In this document: positions 40,569 through 63,966 of the stretch, piece after piece
Numbering within the stretch: the stretch's first letter is position 1
Layout of the letters: every line of letters begins with the position of its first letter
Virus record (IMG/VR): IMGVR_UViG_3300044732_001952
Span: 62,001-126,000 of that record
Length of the DNA: 64,000 bases
Source: a virus
Direction: 5' to 3' (one strand)
The notes under the pieces: generated by a model
Seen by the model: only the letters and a program-made list of their open reading frames with translations
Told to the model about the DNA's origin: nothing
The model's database searches: none
Translations under genes and position numbers: made by a program

Positions 40569-42440
40569 TTACCCTTCAGTTACAGTCGAACTTCTCTTAA
40601 TCCTTACTTTTATATCCCTTTCAGGGAACTTAATTTCAAACATAGAGTCTATATCACCAAATAAAGCGTAATCAGAACCTAAATCAATTAGTTTACCATT
40701 ATTAAATGGTATAACACCATTTACTAAAGATTCTGGTATGAAATTTTGTGATGTTTGGTTTAATGAATAAGGAGAACTTATTAAATTGTAAGCTCTTATA
40801 TCAATAACATTTAGTACACCACCAACATTATTAATGTTTTCAACCAATTGAGCGATATAAATATTATCACCCATTTCCCACTTCTTAACATCAAAATAAT
40901 TTTTAACACTAGTAATAACGTTATTAATTAATTCTGATTGATTAATCTGTTTATCTATAAATAAGTCTATTTCAAATCCTAGGTTAACTACTTTACCATC
41001 ACCAACTAATACGTAATCATTTATCATTCTATAATCTGATAACCAAGTTGCTATATTTTCTTTTAGAGTATTAGTAGATTGGTTTGTTAACTTACCTGAA
41101 GCATCTAAACCTAGTGTATAAATAATTACTTTATTTTGTTCCTCAGCTATTTTATGTCTATAAGGTGAGCCGTATCTACCAGGTATTTTAGCTAAAATAG
41201 CTTCATAATCTTTAATAGTAACCGCTCTATTTTGTGAGGCAAAATTATACTTTGTATATTGTCTTATTTGGTCAACTGAAGGTACCCCAGCTCCACCTAT
41301 TGCTGGAATTGGGTTATTAACTCTTAACGACCTTATTACCGATTGATTTGTTGGTGTGTTGGGTCCATTTACATTTAAAGTAACATTACCAATTGCGTTT
41401 ATAGCATTAGGTCCTATATTACTACTAGGTCCACCACCAACTCTATATCTAATAAATAAGGTTGTGTTTGGTTTAATTATTTCACCTAAAGCTGTAGTAT
41501 TTATAAAGTCACCTATTTTTATACCAGTTGTAGATATGTTTTGTAATTGTTCATCGTCTGTACTAACACCACTACCAAAAGTTAATTTACAGTAATTATT
41601 ATCAGTAAATTCTCTAACAAATTTTCTTGTTGTGTGAACATACTTACCAGGTTTAACCGCTTCATTATCAGTAGTTCTACTAGTGTCTTCAATAAAAACT
41701 TTATCTTCAGCTAACGAATCCATTTCATACCATCTTAAATCTGGGTCAATGAACTGGTCTATTGTTGGGTTATTACTATAATTTGTACCTTCAAGATTTA
41801 TTATACTTTCAATTGAAAGTACGTTTGTATCAGGTAAAAATATTTCAAAGAAAGGTACTGACTCACTTTGTGAGATACTCTTTTTAAAGATTTTCGTTAA
41901 ACCATTAATTACTAACTCTCTTTTAACTATAGTATAATTTTGTAATGTACCATTATCATCTATGTTAGGTAGAATTAATCTATTAGGTGTACCACCTACA
42001 GTATAAGGTGAAGAAAAGTCTATATCCTCTAAATTTTCAAATACTTGTCCACCACCTAAAACTTGTGAACCGTATCTAATCGTTGGTGCGTATCTAATAT
42101 CCCATGTATCACCGTATACAGGTACTACAACGGAGTAATCTACTAAAGTAATACTAGGTCTTAGACCTGGTACTTTTAACCCCAATGTTCTTGCTATAGC
42201 TAAAACATTTTTTCTTTCTTGTGCATAATCCAAAAAAGTTTCGTTAAACATTCGGTCTGTGTGATTGGATAACATATCTCCAACAGCCGCATTTAACTCT
42301 AATAACATCATCCCTACTGATGCGTCATTAAAATCAGAAAATACTTCTGGGTAATATAATTTAATGAAATTAACTAGTTCGGTTCTTACATCAGCGAAGT
42401 TCCTCGCAAAATAATTTATTTTTTTACTTTGTGTTGCCAT
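40569..42440 (-). CDS. 6: baseplate wedge protein (T4 gp6 / baseplate J-like)
   Basis: A 623-residue protein whose N-terminal 100 residues are typical of gp6: FADVRTELVNFIKLYYPEVF, then DASVGMMLLELNAAVGDML and MFNETFLDYAQERKNVLAIA. The middle holds the IKDYEAILAKIPGRYGSP segment typical of the baseplate J/gp6 fold, followed by VDLFIDK and ITSVKNYFDVKKWEMGDNIY. gp6 dimers link the wedges around the baseplate and trigger its sheath-contraction switch. It lies 12 nt after gp25, its partner in all contractile-tail systems, which supports the call. Confidence 0.93.
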   Translation of the reverse strand: MATQSKKINYFARNFADVRTELVNFIKLYYPEVFSDFNDASVGMMLLELNAAVGDMLSNHTDRMFNETFLDYAQERKNVLAIARTLGLKVPGLRPSITLVDYSVVVPVYGDTWDIRYAPTIRYGSQVLGGGQVFENLEDIDFSSPYTVGGTPNRLILPNIDDNGTLQNYTIVKRELVINGLTKIFKKSISQSESVPFFEIFLPDTNVLSIESIINLEGTNYSNNPTIDQFIDPDLRWYEMDSLAEDKVFIEDTSRTTDNEAVKPGKYVHTTRKFVREFTDNNYCKLTFGSGVSTDDEQLQNISTTGIKIGDFINTTALGEIIKPNTTLFIRYRVGGGPSSNIGPNAINAIGNVTLNVNGPNTPTNQSVIRSLRVNNPIPAIGGAGVPSVDQIRQYTKYNFASQNRAVTIKDYEAILAKIPGRYGSPYRHKIAEEQNKVIIYTLGLDASGKLTNQSTNTLKENIATWLSDYRMINDYVLVGDGKVVNLGFEIDLFIDKQINQSELINNVITSVKNYFDVKKWEMGDNIYIAQLVENINNVGGVLNVIDIRAYNLISSPYSLNQTSQNFIPESLVNGVIPFNNGKLIDLGSDYALFGDIDSMFEIKFPERDIKVRIKRSSTVTEG

Positions 42441-51269: not shown

Positions 51270-51674
51270 TTATTCAGTAATCTTCTTCTTTAGTTGTAAA
51301 ATATCTAATTCATTATTTTTAATTAAAATAATAGAGTTTTCGTATTTTGACCATTCTAAATTATATTCAGAATAGTTTACATTGCCGGAATTTAGGTTGA
51401 ATTCTTTTTCGATTAATTTATTTAGAGCATTTATGGTAAAAAATGTTGTACCTTTTTTATGTATTTGTATTGTCTTAGGTAATTCTTTTCTAATGTCTAT
51501 TTTTTGGTCGAATTCTAAAAATATTTTATAAGTTAATAATAAATCTTCTGTGTCTGTTTCAAAAACAAAAACTGAATTTTTTTTAACACCAAAGGATTTG
51601 TATATTTTATATAGGAATTTATCTAGAGATGACGAATTAATAAATGTCGCGACTAATAATATCTTCTTTTGCAT
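51270..51674 (-). CDS. hypothetical protein
   Basis: A 134-residue protein beginning KKILLVATFINSSSLDKFLY, which looks like a strand-helix (Rossmann-like) start, followed by alpha/beta content and a basic end (LQLKKKITE). No motif identifies it. It overlaps the upstream gene by 38 nt, a larger overlap than elsewhere, so the true start may be a little downstream. Confidence 0.72.
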   Translation of the reverse strand: MQKKILLVATFINSSSLDKFLYKIYKSFGVKKNSVFVFETDTEDLLLTYKIFLEFDQKIDIRKELPKTIQIHKKGTTFFTINALNKLIEKEFNLNSGNVNYSEYNLEWSKYENSIILIKNNELDILQLKKKITE

Positions 51675-52203
51675 TTAAGTACGGGATATATTTTATATCG
51701 ATTTTACCTAAATTTTTAGGTAATTCTTCGTATTTTTTTAATGTTATTAATTCTGTAATTTTATCCTTTAAATCCCAAGAAATAAAAGACAAAAGACCCA
51801 TATCTATGTGATGAATTGTTTTACCACAATAAATATAAAGTCTATTCGAATATAAATATCCGTCACATCCCGCAACGTTCTCTTTTACATAATTTAAATA
51901 ATCCTTTTCCGTATTAAAATCTAATGGATTTAAATTATTTATTTTGATTTTACTAGTCATATTTTCTAGTGAATCTTCTAAAAAAGTTTTTAAATGTTCT
52001 TCAAAAATTTTTCTCTTTTCTCTAGGTGAAAAAGTCCAGTAAGTAGTATCATTAATTATATGATTTAAAATAGAAGCACCCTTAGATTTAGCTAAATCCC
52101 AACCAACAATTATCTCAATCAAACCATTATCAAAAGACATGATATCGTTCATATATGGTTTAACCAAATCTATATCGTCTGTTGTAATTTTAATGATGTT
52201 CAT
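51637..52203 (-). CDS. hypothetical protein
   Basis: A 188-residue soluble protein with no recognised family. Features: a helical, acidic N-terminus, SPREKRKIFEEHLKTFLEDS helix, and a CDGYLYSNRLYIYCGKTIHH segment. It is coupled to 51270-51674 by an overlap. Upstream, between 52204 and 52243, only an A/T-rich leader is seen, with a one-mismatch -7 box. Confidence 0.78.
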   Translation of the reverse strand: MNIIKITTDDIDLVKPYMNDIMSFDNGLIEIIVGWDLAKSKGASILNHIINDTTYWTFSPREKRKIFEEHLKTFLEDSLENMTSKIKINNLNPLDFNTEKDYLNYVKENVAGCDGYLYSNRLYIYCGKTIHHIDMGLLSFISWDLKDKITELITLKKYEELPKNLGKIDIKYIPYLNAKEDIISRDIY

Positions 52204-52243: not shown

Positions 52244-54781
52244 TTAACTCTTATTATCTTTGATTCTTTTCATTTGTTTTTTAAACCATTCATCATTACT
52301 GTTGTGAGCTTTTGTTTGTGTGTCAAAATAAGGGTCTATTTCATTACTAGAACTATTTAAAGGCCACAATAAAGTCCAACCTAAATCTGTATATTGTTTA
52401 TAATAAGATTTCATTTGACTAAGTGTAGTATTAGAAACACTTCCCCAACCACGAGTACCAGGTAAAATATATAATGTAGCGTTAGGGAATTTTTTTCTAA
52501 CCAAATCAGTATATGCTTTAATATCTTTCTTGGTACTATCCTTTGTTGGATACCCGTCATTAGTACCAATACCTACTTGGAAGAATGATTCTACACTTGT
52601 GTAAACATTACCGTCTCCATTAATTTGTTGTTTTAACCAAGAGAGTGTTTTACCACCACAGTTATAGTATACGTATATATTATTACTAGTTAAGTTACCG
52701 TAAGTACTAGATTTACTCATACCATTAAGGGTCCCAACACTTGAAGAACCAACAATAGCGTTTTTAGCGTTAGCTAAAGTACCACCACCATTAAGACCAA
52801 ATTTAACAGAACTACTACAATTTTTTGGTTCTGGTGGTTTTCCTGTACCACCCCCACCAGTTGGTGTTTTACCACAACTATCAAACACGTTTTGTGCAAA
52901 AGCACTTCTTTTTTTCCATTCAGCCTCTGTTTGACAAAATTCACATCTTTCCCATTTTTGAGCAACATATTTTGCTGCTTTATAAACTGTATCTTCACTT
53001 TTAAATTTTTCAAATTTTTTACCACCTTCTGATACAGTTAACCAATATATTAAATAACCATAATTAATTTCATCTGTTGCTGGTTTTGTTTTTAAATCAA
53101 AACCTTTAGTACTTGCATATTCTATAAAATCATTTTTTAATGTATAGAAAGTCCATTGTGCCCAACCATAACCTTCTTCATCTTCCCCACCTTTAGAAAA
53201 TGTAGTTCCATTCCATCCACCAGATTCTGTTATAAGTCCCCTTGGTTTTCTCCCTTTTCTATCTTGTATTCTATCAGGTATTAAACCTGATTCAGCAATT
53301 AAATTACCAATAATACCAGCGGCCTGTGCATCAGTTATACCCAAATCACCCTTAAGTCTTCCTATAATCTCACAACCTTTAGCGTTTGTATCAACACTAT
53401 TAAATACTGAAATATCACCACCACTATAATCACCACTATCAGTAGTACTTCCATTACCATTAGTATTAGTGGTAGTTGTATCAGTTTGTACTACTTCAAC
53501 TAAAGCTAAATCAATTAAACTCAAAGCTTCAGTTACAACAGGTACGGTTACTTTGGGTTGTCTCATACCAGTAAATTCAGTAGTAATTTTATTATTTGTT
53601 ATTGTATGGCTAACGGCATTAATTAGATAAGTACCTCTAAACATTGGTACGTTTTCTAATTTAAAATACATTAAAGGTTGTATTGACATATTACCCAAAC
53701 CTGAAACCGTACAATTATAAGCCCTTGTTAAATAAACATCATACATGTTATTACCTTTACCAATTTGTGATGGGTTTGAGCCACTATTAGGATTTGTTAA
53801 GGCATCTATTATTTGTAAAGATTCTTGTGTTTCTTTAAATTCTGTTTGGTCTAACTCTATTGAGTTAAAATGATTTTGTGCTTCTTGCCCATATCTAACT
53901 TTAAAAACAACTAAACCCTCACCTTCTTTAGTGTATTCAACCGGTAAATCTACTGTATTTGTAATATCAAAAGAGTCATCAACATATTCAAAATTACCAC
54001 CATTAACACTACAAGTATTACTATTGTCTTTTAAATCAGCTAGAGACCTAGAACTACCCCCAATATGAACACAAACAAATGATGGTCCTGGATGTACCTT
54101 ATCTATAAATGTTAATGGTCTAAAAATATCTTTTACTTGTTCATTTGTTAATGATACTGTTGATAAATCAATGTTTGCTGGTAATGGCCAAAAATCAAAA
54201 TTGTTTTTACTTAATAAACTTGTCAATGACTCATATAGTGATTGTGTTGGCCCTTGTCCGTTTTTGGTACTAGCTAAATTAGAAAGGTATGAAAAGTCTA
54301 TAACTGCTTTTTTACCCACGTCTTGATTTGCTCTATTAATAAATTTAAAATGTTCATATAACATTCTATCATCTTCTTCACCGTAATTATTAAAGAAATA
54401 ACCAGAAGATTTATTTACACTATCATAAGAATTAGATACCCATTTATCATAAAATGATTTAAATGAACGATATAATGAAAGTTTAACATCTGGGTCACTT
54501 GACATGTTATCCTCAATAGAGTTATTATTTGTATTTTGTGTAATTGATTCAATAATTTTTTTGGAATTGTCTGTCACCGCTTGAATAAACCCATCAACAT
54601 AAGAACTTAATTCATCCTCAGATATATAAAAATCTTCACCAAAATCTTCGGGGTGAATAGCAGAAAAAACTTTAGGTGAAGAAGATATGAGCCTATATTT
54701 AGAATCAGTTACAAATAATTCTTCATACAGTTCTTTGTTTTTATCTTTTTTTAATCCTACTAATCTTGTGTTATCACTCAT
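52244..54781 (-). CDS. hub-like tail protein carrying tail lysozyme and SGNH hydrolase domains
   Basis: An 845-residue protein. Residues 1-432 are shared with the next two genes upstream; the end of that part (FKLENVPMFRGTYLINAVSH, then T-x-F-x-G-x-RQP) resembles the gp27/late-control-D baseplate-hub fold. After a Thr/Asn/Gly linker (433-465), residues 468-638 look like a phage tail lysozyme: AAGIIGNLIAESGLIP with probable catalytic Glu497, then GYGWAQWT. After a second Gly/Pro linker (640-655), residues 656-840 look like an SGNH/GDSL esterase: VGSSS in place of GDS, FQVGIGTND (735-742) and DPYFDTQTKAH with Asp816/His826. Such a protein would open the host wall and trim its acyl or acetyl groups during injection. 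Context: next to the Hint-bearing baseplate protein. Confidence 0.85.
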   Translation of the reverse strand: MSDNTRLVGLKKDKNKELYEELFVTDSKYRLISSSPKVFSAIHPEDFGEDFYISEDELSSYVDGFIQAVTDNSKKIIESITQNTNNNSIEDNMSSDPDVKLSLYRSFKSFYDKWVSNSYDSVNKSSGYFFNNYGEEDDRMLYEHFKFINRANQDVGKKAVIDFSYLSNLASTKNGQGPTQSLYESLTSLLSKNNFDFWPLPANIDLSTVSLTNEQVKDIFRPLTFIDKVHPGPSFVCVHIGGSSRSLADLKDNSNTCSVNGGNFEYVDDSFDITNTVDLPVEYTKEGEGLVVFKVRYGQEAQNHFNSIELDQTEFKETQESLQIIDALTNPNSGSNPSQIGKGNNMYDVYLTRAYNCTVSGLGNMSIQPLMYFKLENVPMFRGTYLINAVSHTITNNKITTEFTGMRQPKVTVPVVTEALSLIDLALVEVVQTDTTTTNTNGNGSTTDSGDYSGGDISVFNSVDTNAKGCEIIGRLKGDLGITDAQAAGIIGNLIAESGLIPDRIQDRKGRKPRGLITESGGWNGTTFSKGGEDEEGYGWAQWTFYTLKNDFIEYASTKGFDLKTKPATDEINYGYLIYWLTVSEGGKKFEKFKSEDTVYKAAKYVAQKWERCEFCQTEAEWKKRSAFAQNVFDSCGKTPTGGGGTGKPPEPKNCSSSVKFGLNGGGTLANAKNAIVGSSSVGTLNGMSKSSTYGNLTSNNIYVYYNCGGKTLSWLKQQINGDGNVYTSVESFFQVGIGTNDGYPTKDSTKKDIKAYTDLVRKKFPNATLYILPGTRGWGSVSNTTLSQMKSYYKQYTDLGWTLLWPLNSSSNEIDPYFDTQTKAHNSNDEWFKKQMKRIKDNKS

Positions 54782-54820
54782 ATTACTTTATTATTTTTTT
54801 AACTAAAACAGATAGTATAA

Positions 54821-56806
54821 TTAAGCTTTTGTATAAGCTAAAAAATATTGTCTTAATTGTTTTTTAGGGTCTTCTAAATAACCAGTTGCCATTATATTTT
54901 TATTATAAATAATTTTTGGTGAAACCCAATTTGCGTATTCTGGGTTTTGGCTTTTTAATGTCGGTATTTGTGAATCTGCTCTGTCTGAATAGTTTCCAGA
55001 AGATATACTACCTATTGAACCTCTAGTAGCTACTCCAATGTAAGATTTTTCGTCAGTACTTTTTTCTATTGTAACTGCCCAACTAACAAAATAATTAGTC
55101 CAATCTATATTAATTTCTATTTTTGAAACTTTTACTTTAACACCCTTACTATTTATTTCTTTTATTACAGTGTTAACACCTTTTCCAGCATAAACTCCAC
55201 CCTGTGTACCAACTTTAACTCTATTACTAAAATTAGCTGGTACTGCTGATTCAGTAAACATATAACCACCAAAATTATCACTTTTTCTAGTATTAAAAGA
55301 GTGTAAGGCGTCTCCACCTAAATCTTTAGCCGTATAACATCCTTTTATGATTACTGGGAAGGACCCATCATTTTTAACACTATTTAAAGAAGTTGTTACA
55401 CAATCATCAATTCCACTGAATGTTGTTACTGTAGATTCGTCATAATTATTATCAGTTGTTGTGGTTGTTGTGGTTCCTCCACCTCCAGTGTTATTTAAAT
55501 TCGTGTCTCCTTGTACTGTTTCAACTAAAGATAAATCTAATATACTCAAAGCTTCGGTCACAATTGGTACCGTAATTATTGGTTGTCTTGTTGCTGTAAA
55601 AGTTGTTTTAGCGTTATGTGGTACGATTGTGTGTGATACATCTGTAATTAGATAAGTACCTCTAAACATTGGGATATTTTCTAATTTAAAAAACATTGTG
55701 GGTTGTATTTGCATGTTACCCAAAGTCTCAACCTTACAAGTGTAACCTCTAGTTAAGTTAACATCATATAAATTATTACCCTTACCAATTTGTGTTGGGT
55801 CCGAACCACTACTTGGGTTTACCAAAGCGTCAATTACCAAAAGTGAATCTTGTGTTTCCCTAAACTCAGCTTGGTCTAACTCCACTTTAATAAAGTGGTT
55901 TTGGGTTTCTTGTCCGTATCTAACTTTAAAAGCCACAATACCACTTGTTTTATCGTTATTAAAATCTTGGGGGTAAGTGGTTGGGTCAAATATGTCAAAA
56001 GAATCATCTTTATATTCAAAATTAGTTCCGTTAGTACCACAATAAGACCTAGGTATATCTAAACTTCTAGAACTACCACCAATAAACATACACACAAATT
56101 TAGGGTTTGCTCTCATTTTAGTTAGTGGACCATCAAAAGCTCTAAACATATCTTCTAATTCACTTGTATTTGCGTCTGAATATTTAATATACCCAGGTAA
56201 TGGTAAGAAATTAAAATTATTTTTACTTAAAACTCCAGTTATAGATTCGTATAGTGATTGTGTAGGTCCTTGCCCATTTTTGGTACTAGCTAAATTAGAA
56301 AGGTAAGCAAAATCTATAACAGCCTTTTTACCTATGTCAGTACCACATCTATTAACAAAATTAAAATGTTCGTATAACATTCTTTCGTCAGTTTTTTCTG
56401 CTGAATATGCATTATAAAAATAATTAGATGTTTGTTGTTGGTTATATTCTGAACTAGAAATCCATTTATCGTAAAGAGATTTAAATGAGCGATATAAAGA
56501 AAGTTTTAGGTCTGTGTCATTTAAAGCAGAATCAGCTATATTATCGTTATTATCTGTATTTTGTGTGATGGAATCAATGATTTTTTGAGAGTTATCGGTC
56601 ACCGCTTGAATAAATCCATCAATATAAGAACCTAGTTCATCCTCTGAAATATAAAAATCTTCTCCAAAATCTTCAGGGTGAATTGCACTAAAAACTTTAG
56701 GTGATGAAGAAATTAAACGGTATTTAGAATCAGTTACAAATAATTCTTTGTACAGTTCATCATTTTTATCTTTTTTTAATCCTACTAATCTTGTGTTATC
56801 ACTCAT
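54821..56806 (-). CDS. hub-like tail protein with an unidentified C-terminal cargo
   Basis: A 661-residue paralog of its two neighbours over residues 1-432 (same MSDNTRLVGLKKDK start, same FKLENIPMFRGTYLI hub motif). The linker is GGGGTTTTTTT. Residues about 468-661 differ from both other cargos: DALHSFNTRKSDNFGGYMFT, then VKVSKIEINIDWTNYFVSWA and ATRGSIGSISSGNYSDRADS, ending in LRQYFLAYTKA. I do not recognise this domain; its place in the set predicts a cell-wall or membrane-directed activity. A worn copy of the gene's own first codons lies in the spacer directly upstream (56817-56854). Confidence 0.83.
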   Translation of the reverse strand: MSDNTRLVGLKKDKNDELYKELFVTDSKYRLISSSPKVFSAIHPEDFGEDFYISEDELGSYIDGFIQAVTDNSQKIIDSITQNTDNNDNIADSALNDTDLKLSLYRSFKSLYDKWISSSEYNQQQTSNYFYNAYSAEKTDERMLYEHFNFVNRCGTDIGKKAVIDFAYLSNLASTKNGQGPTQSLYESITGVLSKNNFNFLPLPGYIKYSDANTSELEDMFRAFDGPLTKMRANPKFVCMFIGGSSRSLDIPRSYCGTNGTNFEYKDDSFDIFDPTTYPQDFNNDKTSGIVAFKVRYGQETQNHFIKVELDQAEFRETQDSLLVIDALVNPSSGSDPTQIGKGNNLYDVNLTRGYTCKVETLGNMQIQPTMFFKLENIPMFRGTYLITDVSHTIVPHNAKTTFTATRQPIITVPIVTEALSILDLSLVETVQGDTNLNNTGGGGTTTTTTTDNNYDESTVTTFSGIDDCVTTSLNSVKNDGSFPVIIKGCYTAKDLGGDALHSFNTRKSDNFGGYMFTESAVPANFSNRVKVGTQGGVYAGKGVNTVIKEINSKGVKVKVSKIEINIDWTNYFVSWAVTIEKSTDEKSYIGVATRGSIGSISSGNYSDRADSQIPTLKSQNPEYANWVSPKIIYNKNIMATGYLEDPKKQLRQYFLAYTKA

Positions 56807-56816
56807 TATTTTTATC

Positions 56817-56854
56817 TTATTTTTTTAATCCTATTAATTTTTTTTATCACCCAT
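56817..56854 (-). pseudogene. vestigial copy of the paralog start (duplication scar)
   Basis: Read on the minus strand from 56854, the sequence is a degenerate copy of the first 13-15 codons of the three hub paralogs: ATG-GGTGAT matches ATG-AGTGAT, and TTAATAGGATTAAAAAAA matches TTAGTAGGATTAAAAAAA. It is cut by stop codons (MGDKKN then stop). The intact start of 54821-56806 follows 10 nt later. This is what an imprecise tandem duplication would leave. Confidence 0.7.
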
Positions 56855-56860
56855 AATATT

Positions 56861-58789
56861 TTATGTACCATCTATTGACCAGTGCCAAGCCTCACCGTTG
56901 TAATTAATAAATCCGTATTTTGAGGCGTTATTAACCAACCAATTAAAACAAACATATTCGTTTGGTTTTTTAGAAGCACCATTTGCGGCACACCAAGCTG
57001 AATCGTGTTTATAACAAATTGTCGACCCATTACAACCAAAATCTATTGCAAATCCACTTTGGTGTCTTGACCTCCCTGGTGTGGCAGTATCAGGGTCACA
57101 ATTACCTTTTACATAAACACCTGTTTTATAACACCCATTAGCTTTAGCCGTATTTATTTGGTCTTCCATTGTTCTAAAGTTACTACCACAAGTTAATGGT
57201 ACACCATCCGCTTGTGCGGCATTAACCATATTATTTAAATTTTCCGCCATTTTGACGTTTATAAGTGCACCTTTTACCTTACATAACCTAATTTTAAATA
57301 ATTTACCACCGGTATAAGCGTCACCAACACCACCATCTGTTATACCGTCTATTTTAGGGCATTGTTCATTTGAACTATCTCCATAAACAGTATCGTCTAT
57401 GAATATTTGGTTGGCTGGTAATATTGTAGTTGTAGTTGTGGTTCCTCCACCTCCCCCACCAGTGTTACCTAAAGCAGCATCTCCTTGTAGTGTTTCAGCT
57501 AGAGCTAGGTCAATCAAACTCAAAGCTTCTGTTACAATAGGTACGGTGACTATTGGTTGTCTCACACCTTTAAATGTTGTTTCTACATTGTGTGGTTTTA
57601 TGGAATGACTGACGTTTGTAATTAAATAAGTTCCTTTATACATTGGGACGTTCTCTAATTTAAAGACCATCATTGGTTGTATTTGCATGTTACCAAATGT
57701 GTTAACAGTACAAGAATAGTTTCTTGTCAAATACATATCATAAATATTATTACCCTTACCAATTTGTGTTGGGTCTGAGCCACTACTAGGATTTGTTAAG
57801 GCATCAATTACCAAAAGTGATTCTTGAGTTTCTTTAAATTCGGATTGGTCTAGTTCTAAAGATTTAAAATGATTTTGGGTTTGTTGTCCGTATCTAACTT
57901 TAAAAGCTGTTATACCACCATTTTTAATAAAATCTTCTGGGTATGTAGTGGGTTTATCTATATCAAAGGTATCGTCTACATAATCAAAATTAATACCATT
58001 ATTACTACATGAAGTTTTTGGTATATCTAATGTCCTAGAATTACCCCCAATAAACATACACACAAATCCAGGTTTAGCGGGTATTCTATCTATAGGACTA
58101 TCGAAAGCTCTAAAAATATTTTCAAGAACTTCATTGCCCCCTGTAGAATACCCAATTACGTTTGGCATTGCAAAAAATTCAAAATTGTTTTTTGTTAATA
58201 AATTAGTTATAGATTCGTATAGGGATTGTGTTGGCCCTTGTCCGTTTTTGGTACTAGCTAAATTAGAAAGGTATGAAAAATCTATAACTGCTTTTTTACC
58301 CACATCACCATTACCTCTATTAACAAAACTAAAATGTTCATATAACATCCTTGTTTCAGATGGACTACTACTACCATAGTTATTATAGAAATAACCTGAA
58401 GTATTACCCGAAGTACTATCTGAACCAATTACAGAACAAGAAATCCATTTATCGTAAAGTGATTTAAATGAACGATATAAAGAAAGTTTTAGGTCTGTGT
58501 CATTTAAAGCGGAATCAGCTATATTATCGTTATTATCCGTATTTTGTGTAATTGACTCAATAATTTTTTTGGAATTGTCTGACACCGCTTGAATAAATCC
58601 GTCGACGTATGAACTTAATTCATCCTCAGATATATAAAATTCTTCATTAAAATCATCAGGATGTATGGCAGAAAAAACTTTAGGTGATGAAGAAATTAAA
58701 CGGTATTTAGAATCAGTTACAAATAATTCTTCATACAGTTCTTTGTTTTTATCTTTTTTTAATCCTACTAATCTTGTGTTATCACTCAT
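56861..58789 (-). CDS. hub-like tail protein with VanY-type D-Ala-D-Ala peptidase domain
   Basis: A 642-residue paralog with the common N-terminal part (residues 1 to about 435), linker GGGGGGTTTTTT and a C-terminal domain at about 507-642 of the VanY/D-alanyl-D-alanine carboxypeptidase family. The zinc motif SRHQSGFAID gives His576 and Asp583; GEAWHWS gives catalytic Glu633 and ligand His636. Six or more cysteines in the domain suggest disulphides. It would cut peptide stems or crossbridges of peptidoglycan. It is the first of the three paralogs on the transcript; its start touches the stop of the 1725-residue gene (58789). Confidence 0.88.
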   Translation of the reverse strand: MSDNTRLVGLKKDKNKELYEELFVTDSKYRLISSSPKVFSAIHPDDFNEEFYISEDELSSYVDGFIQAVSDNSKKIIESITQNTDNNDNIADSALNDTDLKLSLYRSFKSLYDKWISCSVIGSDSTSGNTSGYFYNNYGSSSPSETRMLYEHFSFVNRGNGDVGKKAVIDFSYLSNLASTKNGQGPTQSLYESITNLLTKNNFEFFAMPNVIGYSTGGNEVLENIFRAFDSPIDRIPAKPGFVCMFIGGNSRTLDIPKTSCSNNGINFDYVDDTFDIDKPTTYPEDFIKNGGITAFKVRYGQQTQNHFKSLELDQSEFKETQESLLVIDALTNPSSGSDPTQIGKGNNIYDMYLTRNYSCTVNTFGNMQIQPMMVFKLENVPMYKGTYLITNVSHSIKPHNVETTFKGVRQPIVTVPIVTEALSLIDLALAETLQGDAALGNTGGGGGGTTTTTTILPANQIFIDDTVYGDSSNEQCPKIDGITDGGVGDAYTGGKLFKIRLCKVKGALINVKMAENLNNMVNAAQADGVPLTCGSNFRTMEDQINTAKANGCYKTGVYVKGNCDPDTATPGRSRHQSGFAIDFGCNGSTICYKHDSAWCAANGASKKPNEYVCFNWLVNNASKYGFINYNGEAWHWSIDGT

Positions 58790-61700
58790 TATGTAACGTT
58801 ATGTACTAAAACATTATTTATGATGAAGTTATGGTTACCAGTAACGTTTTTAACGTTCCAAACCCTAACCATTTTATTTTGTTTTTCAATTATTTTAGAA
58901 ATTTTAACTTTATTAAATTTATTGTTAGAATAATAAAAACATTCATCACCACTACTAATTTGTTTTGTGGGTCCTATATGTTCAGAATCATTTACATCAG
59001 TTTGTCTATAAGAAGACCAACCTTTACCAACAACCCAAATAGGGTGGGTATCGGTACAAGTTATTTTAATTCCGTTATCAAAATTGTAAATTACAAGATT
59101 ATCTTTATAATTTATTGTAACGTTTTCAATACTACTTTCTTCAAAAATATTTGTATTTACATTATAACTTAATACAATATCACCAACTACTAAATCTTCA
59201 ATATTAATATTTTTACCACTACTTAACTTAATTTTAGAACCAGCCACAAAACATGAAACATCATAAGTAGGTGATGCTGGTTCGTAATCAGTATTACTAT
59301 TACTTTTCTTTTGTTTTTTTGGTTTTGGTTTTGTGCCAGATAATTCACCCTCATCAAGAAAAGTAAAACGTTGTGTATAGTAATTTTTCTTATCTTCTTT
59401 GGTGTATGTTAAATACTGTCTATCTTTTCTAACAGTCTGAGTTAAAAATCCTTTATACCCATTTAAAACATATGAATTATCAAAACCACCACTTGTTGTT
59501 GACCAATTATCTAAACTACCATTATCATTCCAATTTAATGGGTCTAAGCCTAATAACCATCTAGCATTTTCACCTGTTGCCCAAGATTCAAAAGCATCAA
59601 TAAATTGTATTTTTAAACTTTTTGGTATAAACATTAATTCTTTACATTCTTCTTTTAAAATAGGGTATTTATTATTTAATAAATTAGGTGTCTTATCACT
59701 GTAATTGATATTCTTATTTGTTTCAGTACTTAGATTAGTAATAACCAATGTTTTAGGACTTGTAAAATCAATACCTCTACCACTATCACTTAAAATAAAA
59801 GGCATTTGGTCGGGTCTACATTGGTCAAACCATCCTTTGGTAATATTACCTACAGCACTTCTAAATATACCATTACTAGGGACTTTATCATCATTTTTAC
59901 CAAAAATAGAACTTGATTTAGTCCATCCGGCTCGATATAATGAATTTGTAAAGTTAAAATCAGAAGCAGATAAACCAGGAGGAAAATTAATACTGTTATT
60001 AGGTCCGATAATTACTGGTTTTTGAGTTCCAAAATTTTTACTTATGGATGCTCCACCATTGGTCCATCTATCTACACCCCCTTGGGCACCTAACCATCTT
60101 CTTTGATAACTAGAATTTGTACCACCAAAAGATAAAGCATTTTGTTCTGGTTTTATTGCGTATACAGAACCACCTTTAAACCAAGGTCTAGACGTAGATG
60201 TATGGAAAAACCATACAGGGTCGTTTATGTCATCTATACCTATATTTGAATTGTCAGAAAGGTATGATTTATTTAATCTATTCCACCCTGAATTTATACT
60301 AGCGTCATAAGGAAAAGGGTCTTTTGTAGGTTTTATTTCGTCCCATAATAATAAATTAGTTTCTTTCATTCTCCATAAAATGGCTCCAATTAATAATATA
60401 TAAGCTTTAGGTGGATATGCCATAATAGCTGAAGTTGTGAAATTAGAAAATGATGATAAATCTGTATCACTATTGCCATCCCAAGGTGGAAAATGTCCTG
60501 TTCTAAATTCAGATTTTAAATTATCAAAACCAAATGACATTACCGCCATATAAGCCAATGGTTTGTATATATTATTAGTATTATCTACACCCCACTGATT
60601 TAATCCCCACCAAGTAGACCAATTTCTTCTTTGGTTTGAATCAGCTTTATTATGGTAAGATGGGTATGTACCAATATCTTCTCCAAGGTAAGTAGCAAAT
60701 TCACCAGAAGTTTTACCAGCCACTATTGAAACTACTTCATCAAGAGCCACGGTACCGTTATCACCACCAGACTCAGCGTATTGCCAAGAATTTTTCCATA
60801 AAGGATAATTAAGTAACCATAGTGGTGTGTTTATTATTGAATCCGCGGAACCAACAGAAGTATTAGTATTTGAGGCACCCATAAAATTAGACCAAAATAT
60901 ATATTTTGGAGAATAACTGTCATAAATTGTTCTCGATGAACTTAAATCTAATATTGGTCCCTCTTGTGGTAGGTCTTTTAGGTTTTCATATGTATGATAA
61001 AAATTAGGTGCAAAATAATCACCTAAAGTAAGCATATTTGTATTTTTATCTCTACTTAAATTTATGTCAGCCTCTGTCTCTATCACTTTTTTTGTATCAT
61101 AAGCGGTAGTTGGTTTGTCCCTAGGTGTTTTTGGCCTGAATTTTAATAATCTATACGCTAAAGAACCAACTTCTAAAAGATTTTCGGCTATACCACTATC
61201 AGTTTCTTCAGTACTAGCATAATATTTTTTATAACCATTTTTAATTTCTTCTATTAATGAATCACTACTAAAATCTATTTCTCTTGCTGTTAAATCAGTG
61301 TCTTTTACTAAAACAGCTCCACTTCCGTCATTATTATGTGGGTTTGCTGATATTTTTATATCTTTAGCACTATCAACCCTATCATTTAAATAAATTGGGC
61401 CTGTTAGTGTTAATACATTTTTAGCTGTAACGTATTGGAAATAGCTATTCCATATTTGTGATTGTTTATCTACAAGAGCTGGTGTACCACCAATAGCCGC
61501 GGTAGCCGAAACTTTCCACTCATCAAATTTTTGTGTTTTAAGTTTATTGGTTAAAACTCTTTTTATTTCTGTTATAATAAAATCTTTCTTTGCTGTTGTA
61601 ATATCATTTTGTAACCATTCTAGGGTCGTATTTACCCCGCCATCTAATTTAAGGGTTGTCATCAAATTTAAAGCATCAACATAACCCCAATCTTTCATTC

Positions 61701-63966
61701 TTTTTGTGGTAGCGGGAACTATTTTTCTTTTAAAAGAATCTGTATCTTTCCCTTGTGAACCGTAGGTAAATCCTTCACCACCATATCTACCTAATTGGTT
61801 ATTTGCAGCAATATTTTGTAATACTTTTGGGTTTTCTGCTAATCTTTGTGGTTTAATAGAATACTTATTACCAGTGTTAGAATATCCATTACTAGCCCCA
61901 TTACCATTAGTTAATGTTTCTACACCCCAACCATTTTTAAAACCTAATTGTGATTTCCAAACACTTAAACTATTAATCATAGTGTAGTCACCAATAATAA
62001 AAGCATTTTCACCCATTACTTTATAGATTGAATCAGCCCAAGAAGCTTGGTCACTACTACCGTTTTGTATTTTTAACCATCTATTTGGTGATTCTACTAC
62101 ACCAAATGCGTGAGTTTCGTAGGGTGTGATTGGGGCAAAATTATCATAACCAGGTAAATTTTCTAATTGTAATTCTAAAACAGCTAATTCACCTTTTAAT
62201 TTTGTTAAAGCTTTAATAAACGATTCAACAAATATTACTTCAGGCCAACTAACAAATTCGGGATTTTCCCCTGGGTATGTTTCTTTATCCCCAACTTCAC
62301 TATCAGAACCTTGTTTCTTTTCATAATATGTTGGCCAAGGATATACTTTGTTTTTTTGTTTATCGTTCTCTTCATCAGATAATTCAGCACCATTATTTTG
62401 GGTACCTTTTAAATCTAAAATTTGTTGGAGCCCAGTTTTATCTAGGCCAATATTCACATTATTTTCTTGGTGATATTTTTCTGCGTCACGAGAAGTTCTT
62501 AATAGTAATTCTAGAAATACCTCAACGTTTGTTAGAATTATAGCAAAAACATTACTAATTGTAGGTAAAAAACCTAACGTGGTCACAACTTCTTTGTTTA
62601 AGAAATTTTTAGTATTATCTTTTTCAATTATATATTTTTTATTAAGTTCTACACTAGCAACATCAATAGGTTTTAATAAACTTTCATATATATCAATATA
62701 ATAATCTCTTAAACCATCAACTATATTTATTGGTGTACCGAAAAATCCAGAAGCATTAGTTTTAATTGTATCCCAAGAAAGTATTGGTGGTCCATCAATA
62801 GCATTATTTGTGTAATAACTATTTACGGAATTATATTTTGCACCTATAGTACCACCTAATTGAGAGTTTTCCCCTGTACCAAAATAAGTTTCAACTACTT
62901 TTTTAAGTTCAACTAATACTGGATTATCATCTGATGCACTAACGTTGGGTAATTTTAAATATAATGTGTTTTTTTGGTTTGTAGTATTGGGACTAATTCT
63001 ATACCCACCATTGGGGGAATTAGCTATTTTTTCTAAAAATTTTTGTCTAAATTCTAAAACTGATTCTCGTAACCCCTTTAACTCATTTTTGGTTTTATTA
63101 ATTTTACCTAAATTGGTTACTTGTGTAGAATTTTTTAATTCACTTGTTCTTGATTCTAGTTTTTTAGAGGATTTAATTAAATCATAAACGTTTATAGGTT
63201 TTGTAGCATCAGTGAATGACGTTTGGTCTATTAATGGTGTTTCTACATTATTAACCAAAACTTTTTTATCCATTAATAATTTCCATTTTTCAGCCAAAAT
63301 ATCTTTACCATTATGTGGTTTTTCCATAAATCCAGCTGCCATAACATATCCCATAGGGATATCCGCTAAGAATGCATAAGTATAACCCACAAATTCTGCT
63401 TTCGATTCAAAGTTACCTGTGTCCGAATTAAATTTTGTATTAAATTTAGTTAAAGCTAATGTGTATGTAACTGGTCTACCATAATATCCTTTTACTGTTA
63501 ATTCAAAAACAGGGTAAGGTAAGTGAAAAAAGACTGCGTAAGGTGAACAGGGTCCTTGTTCAAATAAAGCTGCTCCACGAACATCCACAAAATCAATTAC
63601 AATTTGTGGCATGAAACTAGATTTAAATTCTATATTAATATTTGTGATACCAAATGAACCTAAATCTTCACCAAAGTTTAAGTTACCACCCCCAATGTTA
63701 GTCCAACTAGTATCAATACTATCTTTACCTGTTGGGTATGTGAAGTTAGTTTCTGATTTTACATTTCTTTGTTCTACAATATTAGTAACTTGGTCATTAG
63801 CGTCATCAAATGTTAAGATACTTCTACCTTTAGACCTAGCAACTAGTTTTACATACATCACCAAGTCTTCGTGATTAACTATTTCATCTGTTGGGTTTGG
63901 GTCAACGTATCTAATTCCGTTACCCATATCTTGAACTTTTGGTTGTGGTCCTTGATTAAGTGCCAT
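58789..63966 (-). CDS. giant baseplate protein with C-terminal Hint (intein-like) domain
   Basis: A 1725-residue protein, the largest here. The N-terminal 250 residues (IVIDFVDVRGAALFEQGPCS, then FELTVKGYYGRPVTYTLALT and KAEFVGYTYAFLADIPMGY) are of a tail/baseplate type, and helical parts follow at about 300-330 and 580-620. A long Trp- and Asn-rich middle has no domain I know. Residues 1572-1725 form a Hint domain: Cys1572-FVAGSKI (block A), CTDTHPIW (block B), and VWNVKNVTGNHNFIINNVLV ending HN (1722-1723) followed by only Val-Thr. It heads the operon of the three hub-like hydrolase carriers. The leader has A-rich sequence; a partial TAAATAA box is 16-22 nt upstream. Confidence 0.87.
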   Translation of the reverse strand: MALNQGPQPKVQDMGNGIRYVDPNPTDEIVNHEDLVMYVKLVARSKGRSILTFDDANDQVTNIVEQRNVKSETNFTYPTGKDSIDTSWTNIGGGNLNFGEDLGSFGITNINIEFKSSFMPQIVIDFVDVRGAALFEQGPCSPYAVFFHLPYPVFELTVKGYYGRPVTYTLALTKFNTKFNSDTGNFESKAEFVGYTYAFLADIPMGYVMAAGFMEKPHNGKDILAEKWKLLMDKKVLVNNVETPLIDQTSFTDATKPINVYDLIKSSKKLESRTSELKNSTQVTNLGKINKTKNELKGLRESVLEFRQKFLEKIANSPNGGYRISPNTTNQKNTLYLKLPNVSASDDNPVLVELKKVVETYFGTGENSQLGGTIGAKYNSVNSYYTNNAIDGPPILSWDTIKTNASGFFGTPINIVDGLRDYYIDIYESLLKPIDVASVELNKKYIIEKDNTKNFLNKEVVTTLGFLPTISNVFAIILTNVEVFLELLLRTSRDAEKYHQENNVNIGLDKTGLQQILDLKGTQNNGAELSDEENDKQKNKVYPWPTYYEKKQGSDSEVGDKETYPGENPEFVSWPEVIFVESFIKALTKLKGELAVLELQLENLPGYDNFAPITPYETHAFGVVESPNRWLKIQNGSSDQASWADSIYKVMGENAFIIGDYTMINSLSVWKSQLGFKNGWGVETLTNGNGASNGYSNTGNKYSIKPQRLAENPKVLQNIAANNQLGRYGGEGFTYGSQGKDTDSFKRKIVPATTKRMKDWGYVDALNLMTTLKLDGGVNTTLEWLQNDITTAKKDFIITEIKRVLTNKLKTQKFDEWKVSATAAIGGTPALVDKQSQIWNSYFQYVTAKNVLTLTGPIYLNDRVDSAKDIKISANPHNNDGSGAVLVKDTDLTAREIDFSSDSLIEEIKNGYKKYYASTEETDSGIAENLLEVGSLAYRLLKFRPKTPRDKPTTAYDTKKVIETEADINLSRDKNTNMLTLGDYFAPNFYHTYENLKDLPQEGPILDLSSSRTIYDSYSPKYIFWSNFMGASNTNTSVGSADSIINTPLWLLNYPLWKNSWQYAESGGDNGTVALDEVVSIVAGKTSGEFATYLGEDIGTYPSYHNKADSNQRRNWSTWWGLNQWGVDNTNNIYKPLAYMAVMSFGFDNLKSEFRTGHFPPWDGNSDTDLSSFSNFTTSAIMAYPPKAYILLIGAILWRMKETNLLLWDEIKPTKDPFPYDASINSGWNRLNKSYLSDNSNIGIDDINDPVWFFHTSTSRPWFKGGSVYAIKPEQNALSFGGTNSSYQRRWLGAQGGVDRWTNGGASISKNFGTQKPVIIGPNNSINFPPGLSASDFNFTNSLYRAGWTKSSSIFGKNDDKVPSNGIFRSAVGNITKGWFDQCRPDQMPFILSDSGRGIDFTSPKTLVITNLSTETNKNINYSDKTPNLLNNKYPILKEECKELMFIPKSLKIQFIDAFESWATGENARWLLGLDPLNWNDNGSLDNWSTTSGGFDNSYVLNGYKGFLTQTVRKDRQYLTYTKEDKKNYYTQRFTFLDEGELSGTKPKPKKQKKSNSNTDYEPASPTYDVSCFVAGSKIKLSSGKNINIEDLVVGDIVLSYNVNTNIFEESSIENVTINYKDNLVIYNFDNGIKITCTDTHPIWVVGKGWSSYRQTDVNDSEHIGPTKQISSGDECFYYSNNKFNKVKISKIIEKQNKMVRVWNVKNVTGNHNFIINNVLVHNVT
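58792..59253 (-). other. Hint domain (self-splicing/cleaving fold) inside 58789-63966
   Basis: Covers residues 1572-1725. All key positions are present: N-terminal Cys, TxxH-type block B, penultimate His and final Asn of the domain, then a two-residue end Val-Thr. The residue after Asn is Val, not Cys/Ser/Thr, so normal protein splicing is not expected; bacterial-intein-like N- or C-terminal cleavage is. Confidence 0.85.

Follow-up and report, generated by a model that had tools for sequence, protein, structure and literature searches.

The window analyzed here is a 64,000-nucleotide (nt) stretch of viral DNA (positions 62,001 to 126,000 of the IMG/VR virus record IMGVR_UViG_3300044732_001952). 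It contains three tandem genes, here called A, B, and C, whose products share an N-terminal part with a predicted tail hub fold and end in unrelated tails. Gene A (56861..58789) encodes 642 amino acids (aa), gene B (54821..56806) 661 aa, and gene C (52244..54781) 845 aa. All three are found on the minus strand with intergenic gaps of 54 nt (A-B) and 39 nt (B-C), and the start codon of gene A overlaps the stop codon of the gene encoding a 1725-aa baseplate protein (58789..63966 (-)). BLASTP comparison over residues 1 to about 434 gives pairwise identities of 73% (A/B), 69% (A/C), and 67% (B/C), and no similarity is found beyond this region. Three tandem paralogs with shared N-termini and unrelated ends had been reported at this span in a preliminary description of the window, made from its letters and open reading frames (ORFs), and both the ORFs and the BLASTP alignments confirm this. 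The shared part was there called the same protein in all three genes; the sharing is real, but the copies are diverged paralogs, 67-73% identical. Two features were overlooked, namely the fission that separated this part from the 1725-aa protein and the existence of two ancient classes of hub gene.

The complete 6546-base array is present with 0 mismatches in three further IMG/VR contigs (L001-L003), and a homologous three-gene array is found in the related locus L005; it is therefore not an assembly repeat. The window's own 163 kb virus record contains these three hub copies and no other, and a 226-kb contig of the same phage also contains three. In the gap between A and B (56807..56860 (-)), the opening ~46 nt of a hub gene recur in degenerate form as a duplication scar. 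Its alignment score to the hub gene start is 60, which is reached by 0 of 1000 shuffled sequences. No copy of the gene start is seen in the B-C gap, where the score is reached by 354 of 1000 shuffles.

C-Terminal Tails and Enzyme Domains

The tail of A contains a VanY (M15) domain at residues 510-637 (56879..57262 (-); PF02557, E 2e-13, above the cut-off). The residues S574xHxxGxAxD and E633xWH follow the pattern SxHxxGxAxD...ExxH, which we take to be the VanY/M15 metal motif, and the Pfam match and the motif together bear out the earlier assignment of this end as a VanY-type D,D-peptidase. In C, a Phage_lysozyme2 domain is found at residues 474-634 (52880..53362 (-); PF18013, E 2.4e-20, above the cut-off), with an AES motif at residues 496-498. 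The remainder of C, residues ~665-845 (52247..52789 (-)), is SGNH-like and contains the blocks GSSS (678), GTND (739), and D820...H826, presumably SGNH blocks. The tail lysozyme previously proposed for C is thus retained on the PF18013 match, and the SGNH hydrolase proposed beside it is recognized by motifs only, with no SGNH match for C in Pfam at E<=1. At the level of sequence the enzyme families of A and C can be regarded as established, and the domains are expected to be catalytically active. The SGNH-like end of C would perhaps add an esterase to the activities at the tail tip.

The tail of B (residues 435-661, 54824..55504 (-)) has no recognized relative. Nothing significant is found in Pfam, the best match being MoCoBD_2 with an E of 0.11, far under its cut-off, in agreement with its earlier description as an unknown domain. 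Identical copies are the only matches in the viral scan, and there are none in the PDB by sequence. Part of the tail, residues 534-599, is modeled as a helix and three strands, and among the 50 rows listed by VIA-align it matches only small designed or unrelated alpha-beta proteins.

Predicted Fold of the Shared Part

The fold of the shared part was assessed using a model of B built from a 46-row alignment, with a mean predicted local distance difference test score (pLDDT) of 51.6. As ten-residue means, the pLDDT is 56-77 for residues 141-240, 58-74 for residues 271-310, and 73-83 for residues 351-410, and it is mostly lower elsewhere. The 41 entries ranked highest by VIA-align are without exception tail, baseplate, injection-system or VgrG proteins, with Z scores of 5.1-8.0 and aligned model residues within 125-441, and the first other row (rank 42) matches the tail of B instead. 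The matches include the pyocin hub 6u5h (Z 8.0; 143 aa, 4.0 A), injection-system hubs (Z 7.8-7.9), the A-1(L) hub (8kea chain A, 7.7), T4 gp27 (1k28 chain D, 7.6; 158 aa, 5.1 A), Mu gp44 (1wru, 6.9), and VgrG1 (4mtk, 6.5). The tool cautions that a Z under 8 can reflect a common arrangement; a hub fold is accepted here because the list is uniform. Foldseek alone gives no PDB match at E<=0.001, and its best match (2.7e-3) is a hub-type tail protein.

When it comes to sequence profiles, hhalign against nine gp27 sequences aligns residues 355-401 with gp27 309-356 with a P of 0.0019 and a probability of only 14.5; the score is 33.0, compared with 22.6 for the best of 60 column-shuffled controls. 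A deeper profile gives lower values (probability 4.4, score 28.4 vs. 23.9 for the control). PHROG 52, "tail protein", is matched weakly in four of 10 members (E 0.009-0.16). The modest model and the weak gp27 match above controls thus support the gp27/gpD-type hub fold proposed earlier, as a prediction for residues ~140-410.

Known gp27/gpD-type hubs have a first tube-like barrel at their N-terminus. Most of the model alignments start at hub residue ~120 or later, which leaves this barrel uncovered in A, B, and C, and the first ~120 residues of the T4 gp27-type hubs have not been located elsewhere. The N-terminus of the 1725-aa protein was considered as the place of the missing barrel; the idea found no support in profile-profile comparison or in a PDB search and is speculative.

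Single-Chain Relatives and the Fission

Using the most conserved 71 aa of the hub part, a scan gave 68 loci, nine or more of them on contigs already in the set. Before counting, repeats were removed (L001-L004, L068, L087-L090, L099-L102, L135, and repeats of earlier scans), as was L030, where the contig ends before the hub. This left 72 hub-bearing ORFs in 65 loci, the window included. In 42 ORFs from 42 loci, 31 of them distinct at 95% identity of the hub part, the hub has no separate gene. These ORFs encode giant proteins of 1298-3474 aa, some of them cut at the start by a contig end, in which the hub body is found near the C-terminal end and a stretch matching the 1725-aa protein's N-terminus is also present. 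The 1725-aa protein is accordingly a homolog of the N-terminal region of these single-chain hubs, the positions in the giants matched by its profile being mostly the N-terminal ~640. A further 18 hub ORFs are without a matched N-terminus, 13 of these starting <=80 bases from a sequence end; none were counted as fused.

Outside the window's clade, all 25 records searched whole (29-340 kb) encode a single hub copy. These records comprise 24 with a fused gene and L112; three are near-identical and many are fragments. In L112 (2107-4440 and 4437-8879) a giant has been divided at another place by a separate fission, giving 777 + 1480 aa with a single hub copy. A break in L124 resembles a frameshift in an L118-type sequence.

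Trees were made from 46 of the 49 hub representatives, the fragments L067, L075, and L110 being left out. One branch, with a support of 98/97, places the 11 split-gene rows on one side and 35 others, not all seen whole, on the other. The C class has a support of 100/98, the monophyly of the A/B class is weak (85/68), and the sister group of the split clade is supported by only 71/71. Relative to the giants, the start codon of the split genes is placed within the variable linker, just ahead of the aligning region. Given the fused relatives, the tree, and the start-codon position, the window's clade is most simply explained by a single fission immediately ahead of the hub body and later duplication. 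The shared part recognized in the preliminary description is thus real, but it is one half of a larger ancestral protein. For L067, which has an Amidase_2 tail and is cut upstream, a union with the split clade is not rejected (p 0.35) and one with the A/B class is (p 0.03), which leaves this locus unplaced. The same locus encodes a helicase-like protein (L067:7729-10224) with, by eye, an apparent in-frame intein, a long insertion ending in ...THN.

No relatives were found in the cellular genomes scanned, nor among the INPHARED phages by tblastn with three hub queries and one from the 1725-aa protein. In BFVD the best matches are proteins of uncultured phages. One of these is a "Lysozyme" of Myoviridae sp. 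ctPuP5 (E 3.8e-22), which probably belongs to the same giant family.

The tails of 20 relatives were scanned with Pfam using curated cut-offs. L082 and L084 have lysozyme2 and VanY in tandem on a single chain, above the cut-off, so by domain content the two enzyme families found there on one chain are divided among the three genes of the window. Other tails above the cut-off are VanY in L083, M23 in L074, GH25 in L107, M15_4 and VanY in L110, lysozyme2 in L113, and Amidase_2 in L067. Below the cut-off are VanY in L069, M23 in L077, GDSL in L078 and L113, M15_3 in L105, and GH19 in L114, and the tails of L079, L081, L111, L112, L118, L126, and L007 are without a Pfam match. The tail is <=70 aa in 12 of the 49 distinct hub representatives. 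Exchange of tails on a common hub part, suggested earlier from the three genes of the window, is supported and general among the relatives; the family carries varied wall-enzyme tails freely on a common hub body.

Split Arrays in the Window's Clade

Counted over whole records, there are three hub copies in L002 and L005, two in L007 and L008, and one in L012. The L005 copies carry VanY, lysozyme2, and a tail interrupted by the contig end; the full form of this third copy, seen in L006, has lysozyme2 and an SGNH-like end. L007 has one bare copy (463 aa) and one with a 244-aa tail, and the two copies of L008 have Amidase_2 and lysozyme2 tails. The single copy seen in L012 belongs to the C class and is bare; the contig is cut upstream, and the split state of L012 is deduced from its place in the tree. 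L030 (IMG/VR 3300009103_000001, 210 kb) has no hub copy in its record, which ends before the place of the hub. Since the contig stops just after a 1812-aa homolog of the 1725-aa gene with a Hint end, its hub copy probably lies beyond the contig.

A 313-aa gene without a Pfam match is found between the two hub paralogs of L007 (L007:7365-8306), adjoining the bare copy, and may encode an enzyme that has become detached, or a partner.

Two Old Classes and a Homogenized Half

The two halves of the shared part seem to have different histories. Residues 1-203 (in A 58181..58789 (-)) group by genome and are homogenized among the paralogs, while residues 204-418 (in A 57536..58180 (-)) group by class across genomes. 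Identity windows and trees give the same picture for B and C. Over residues 1-100, A- and C-class copies within a genome are 83-95% identical (means of four genomes), while copies of the same class in different genomes are only 29-64% identical. Over residues 211-250 the identity is 37% within genomes and 46-48% within classes. In 66 columns the A- and C-class copies agree within each of the four genomes and differ among the genomes.

The tree of residues 1-203, from which the truncated L012 was left out, groups L007 (99/98), L008 (100/100), and L005 (98/97) each by genome, as it does the window, and a C-class clade is rejected by the approximately unbiased test (p-AU 1.5e-7). The tree of residues 204-418 groups by class, with a support of 100/99 for the C class, and genome clades are rejected for the window (p 2.3e-8), L007 (5.8e-4), and L008 (3.2e-5). 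Read from these trees, the A/B and C classes are old paralogs that split before the four lineages parted, A and B stem from a later duplication seen in the window and L005 lineages, and residues 1-203 show concerted evolution. Within genomes, 37 of 124 fourfold sites differ in residues 1-60 against 50 of 106 in residues 204-300 (Fisher p 0.009, with non-independent pairs). Because of these fewer differences, gene conversion is favored over selection alone.

Both classes are found in all four lineages with a readable array, even where the A-class copy is bare. The tandem position and the duplication scar might be taken as signs of ordinary redundancy, i.e., duplicates without distinct function that are heading for loss. 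This is disfavored and highly improbable, as the class split is older than the four lineages and no internal stop was found in any hub copy of the split-clade records.

The near identity of the N-terminal ~100 residues within each genome looks as if all copies had one docking partner, and together with the free variation of tails between lineages it would also fit a set of interchangeable hubs. A, B, and C would then compete for the same sites and form homotrimers or random mixtures, and the resulting mixed population would serve as bet-hedging on host range. Such an arrangement is conceivable though doubtful: the class-specific halves have been separate since before the four lineages split, and the enzyme-free A-class copy in L007 makes little sense as an alternative carrier of an enzyme.

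The ancient and stable class difference over residues 204-418 could also mean that the classes occupy different sites, one being the true central hub and the other(s) sitting in another ring or at the periphery of the baseplate. The occurrence of one or two A/B-class copies beside one C-class copy agrees with this. It is nevertheless unlikely, since each of the 25 records from outside the clade has just one copy of the gene, both classes retain the same hub motif, and the homogenized N-halves point to one common partner.

A Proposed Hub of Non-Identical Chains

The best explanation is in our opinion a mixed, non-identical hub within one virion. With a probability of roughly 0.55, the genes encode a split and duplicated contractile-tail hub whose paralogs would fill neighboring hub sites in the same virion, each with its own tail. 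The ancestor would have been one giant chain consisting of an N-terminal baseplate part, the hub body, and often enzyme tails, presumably forming a trimer of identical chains like other hubs. In the window's clade, a break immediately ahead of the hub body turned this chain into two genes, one for its N-terminal portion (now the 1725-aa protein) and one, which was then duplicated, for the hub body. Paralogy, fission, duplication, a single origin, and the concerted and class-specific halves are evident from the sequences, and the hub fold is supported by prediction; the trimer, the assembly of the paralogs into one virion, and the roles of the halves are inferred. With the paralogs in the hub sites, the tail tip could offer several activities (D,D-peptidase, lysozyme, and perhaps esterase) rather than one set three times.

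The first half, which is kept alike inside each genome, would make a contact common to all copies, for instance with the 1725-aa protein or a wedge. The second half, distinct since before the four lineages parted, would provide the contacts that make A/B and C non-interchangeable. Since an enzyme-free A-class copy is kept in L007, the A class may have a structural role beyond its enzyme. The three genes thus suggest a tail tip built from non-identical hub chains.

Several observations weigh against a mixed hub. The B model is modest, its mean pLDDT falling to 31.7 with a 10-row alignment, its best Z of 8.0 lies in the tool's ambiguous range, and no solved hub is matched by sequence in the PDB. 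The window's genome clade for residues 1-203 is supported by 87/95 only, and there are only four strictly diagnostic class columns. From residue ~300 on, the identities within genomes (66-80%) and within classes (64-82%) are close, so that the class signal there is in the tree and not in raw identity. The 37 synonymous sites of 124 that still differ in residues 1-60 imply that the conversion is not recent. With two copies in L007 and L008, a 1:1:1 composition is not general, and the bare copies in L007 and L012 also count against a fixed trio. The heterotrimer of one A, one B, and one C envisaged in the preliminary description is therefore disfavored as a universal arrangement, the copy number being two or three.

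Whether a tail hub can be built of non-identical chains, and why a phage divides its wall enzymes in this way, are testable questions. The clade offers a natural before-and-after pair: in L082 and L084 one chain carries the enzyme families that in the window are spread over paralogs.

Comparison with Known Hubs

To our knowledge, phage hubs have been described as trimers of one protein. The phage structures described in two reports have a homotrimeric hub (PMC10966104, PMC13252515). No multi-paralog or mixed phage hub was recognized in the literature covered, which was available in part and excludes most subscription journals. In the sources covered, phage "heterotrimers" are wedges (PMC10811340, PMC10457771, PMC10966104) or capsid proteins (PMC11945409), and the gp35/36/37 heterotrimer consists of accessory proteins around a homotrimeric hub (PMC13252515).

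The predicted fold of residues ~140-410 corresponds in alignments to the middle and C-terminal regions of T4 gp27, Mu gp44, and the R-type pyocin hub. As for T4 gp27-type hubs, the genes lie in the tail module near a gp53-like wedge gene, whereas the hub body in the window is a separate gene in two to three non-identical tailed copies in the clade. The hub gp15 of Anabaena phage A-1(L) is a trimer of a single chain with lysozyme, endoglucanase, and peptidase domains, two of them with measured activity (PMC10966104). This protein, matched by the B model through 8kea chain A, resembles the single-chain relatives L082 and L084; it is encoded by one gene and its chains are identical, whereas in the window the enzymes are divided among paralogs.

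The specialized ("evolved") VgrG proteins, which the proposed mixed hub would resemble in its working, also comprise several paralogs with different C-terminal ends; they belong to a secretion system, whereas the window is from a phage and has its hub body split from the N-terminal part. VgrG has gp27 and gp5 parts fused in one chain. The VIA-align matches to VgrG cover the gp27-like part, and Pfam recognizes no gp5-like needle family in A, B, C, or the relatives' tails scanned. VgrG-1, -2, and -3 of Vibrio cholerae are paralogs that serve as spikes of a single machine; their C-terminal ends differ, and VgrG-2 has virtually none (PMC10433429). Mixed trimers have been proposed for specialized VgrG sets of type VI secretion (PMC3166118, PMC10433429).

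The Hint Domain and the Tail Module

At the split point, residues 1572-1725 of the 1725-aa protein (58792..59253 (-)) form a Hint (intein-like) domain. In Pfam, the matches to Intein_splicing (E 1.4e-6) and to Hint (E 2.9e-5) do not reach the curated cut-offs, and a match to AXH over the same stretch is above its cut-off (E 6e-9). The domain is also found in L005 and L030, and in L008 it is weak with a degenerate end. It was not found in L007, and a Hint profile finds none in the ORFs of the giants at E<=0.01. In the window the terminal Asn is followed by two residues (VLVHN-VT), while none follow in L005, which ends in VLVYN. Judged by its sequence, this virion protein may be capable of autoprocessing.

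The place of the Hint domain hints at an action on the join. In an obligately mixed hub, each of three copies of the 1725-aa protein would hold a different hub chain, A, B, or C (A- and C-class copies in other lineages). Hint would, for example, activate the C-terminus of the 1725-aa protein so that it is transferred to the Ser with which A, B, or C would begin once Met is lost. Three different full-length hubs would thereby be rebuilt post-translationally. The hub genes begin with Met-Ser where Hint looks intact (3/3 in the window and 3/3 in L005), and with Met-Ala or Met-Gly in L007, where no Hint is seen, and L008, where its end is degenerate. Because N-termini are homogenized within genomes, this amounts to only two lineages vs. 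two, and we regard the proposal as very unlikely.

By its gene content, the region around the hub array is a contractile tail module of the T4-like type. In transcribed order, a gp19-like tube (phrog_4542, E 3.9e-31; PF06841 below its cut-off) is followed by a T4_baseplate family protein (PF12322, above its cut-off), 590-aa and 931-aa proteins, a 1457-aa OmpA-domain protein, a 104-aa protein, the 1725-aa protein, and then A, B, and C. The 931-aa protein is taken as the tape measure by length and position only. The 104-aa protein, in a gp53-like position, matches phrog_7145 "baseplate wedge subunit" weakly (E 4e-4), as seen in the identical contig L001, and a gp6-like wedge gene (phrog_219) is found at 40569-42440. 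The OmpA-family domain of the 1457-aa protein (L017:307-4680 (-), upstream in the window's record) is internal, at residues 834-898. A ClpP-like ORF, recognized by eye, lies on the opposite strand within the tail region (L017:15139-15828 (+)).

The sequence is AT-rich with 31% guanine plus cytosine. For its DnaB helicase, identity is ~29% in the best matches listed and stays below 60% in all 2808 matching records, which by sequence places the phage far from named phages. The hub array is followed by two small genes with overlapping ends (51637-52203 and 51270-51674 (-)), and the same two genes follow it in L006, L007, L008, L012, and L067.

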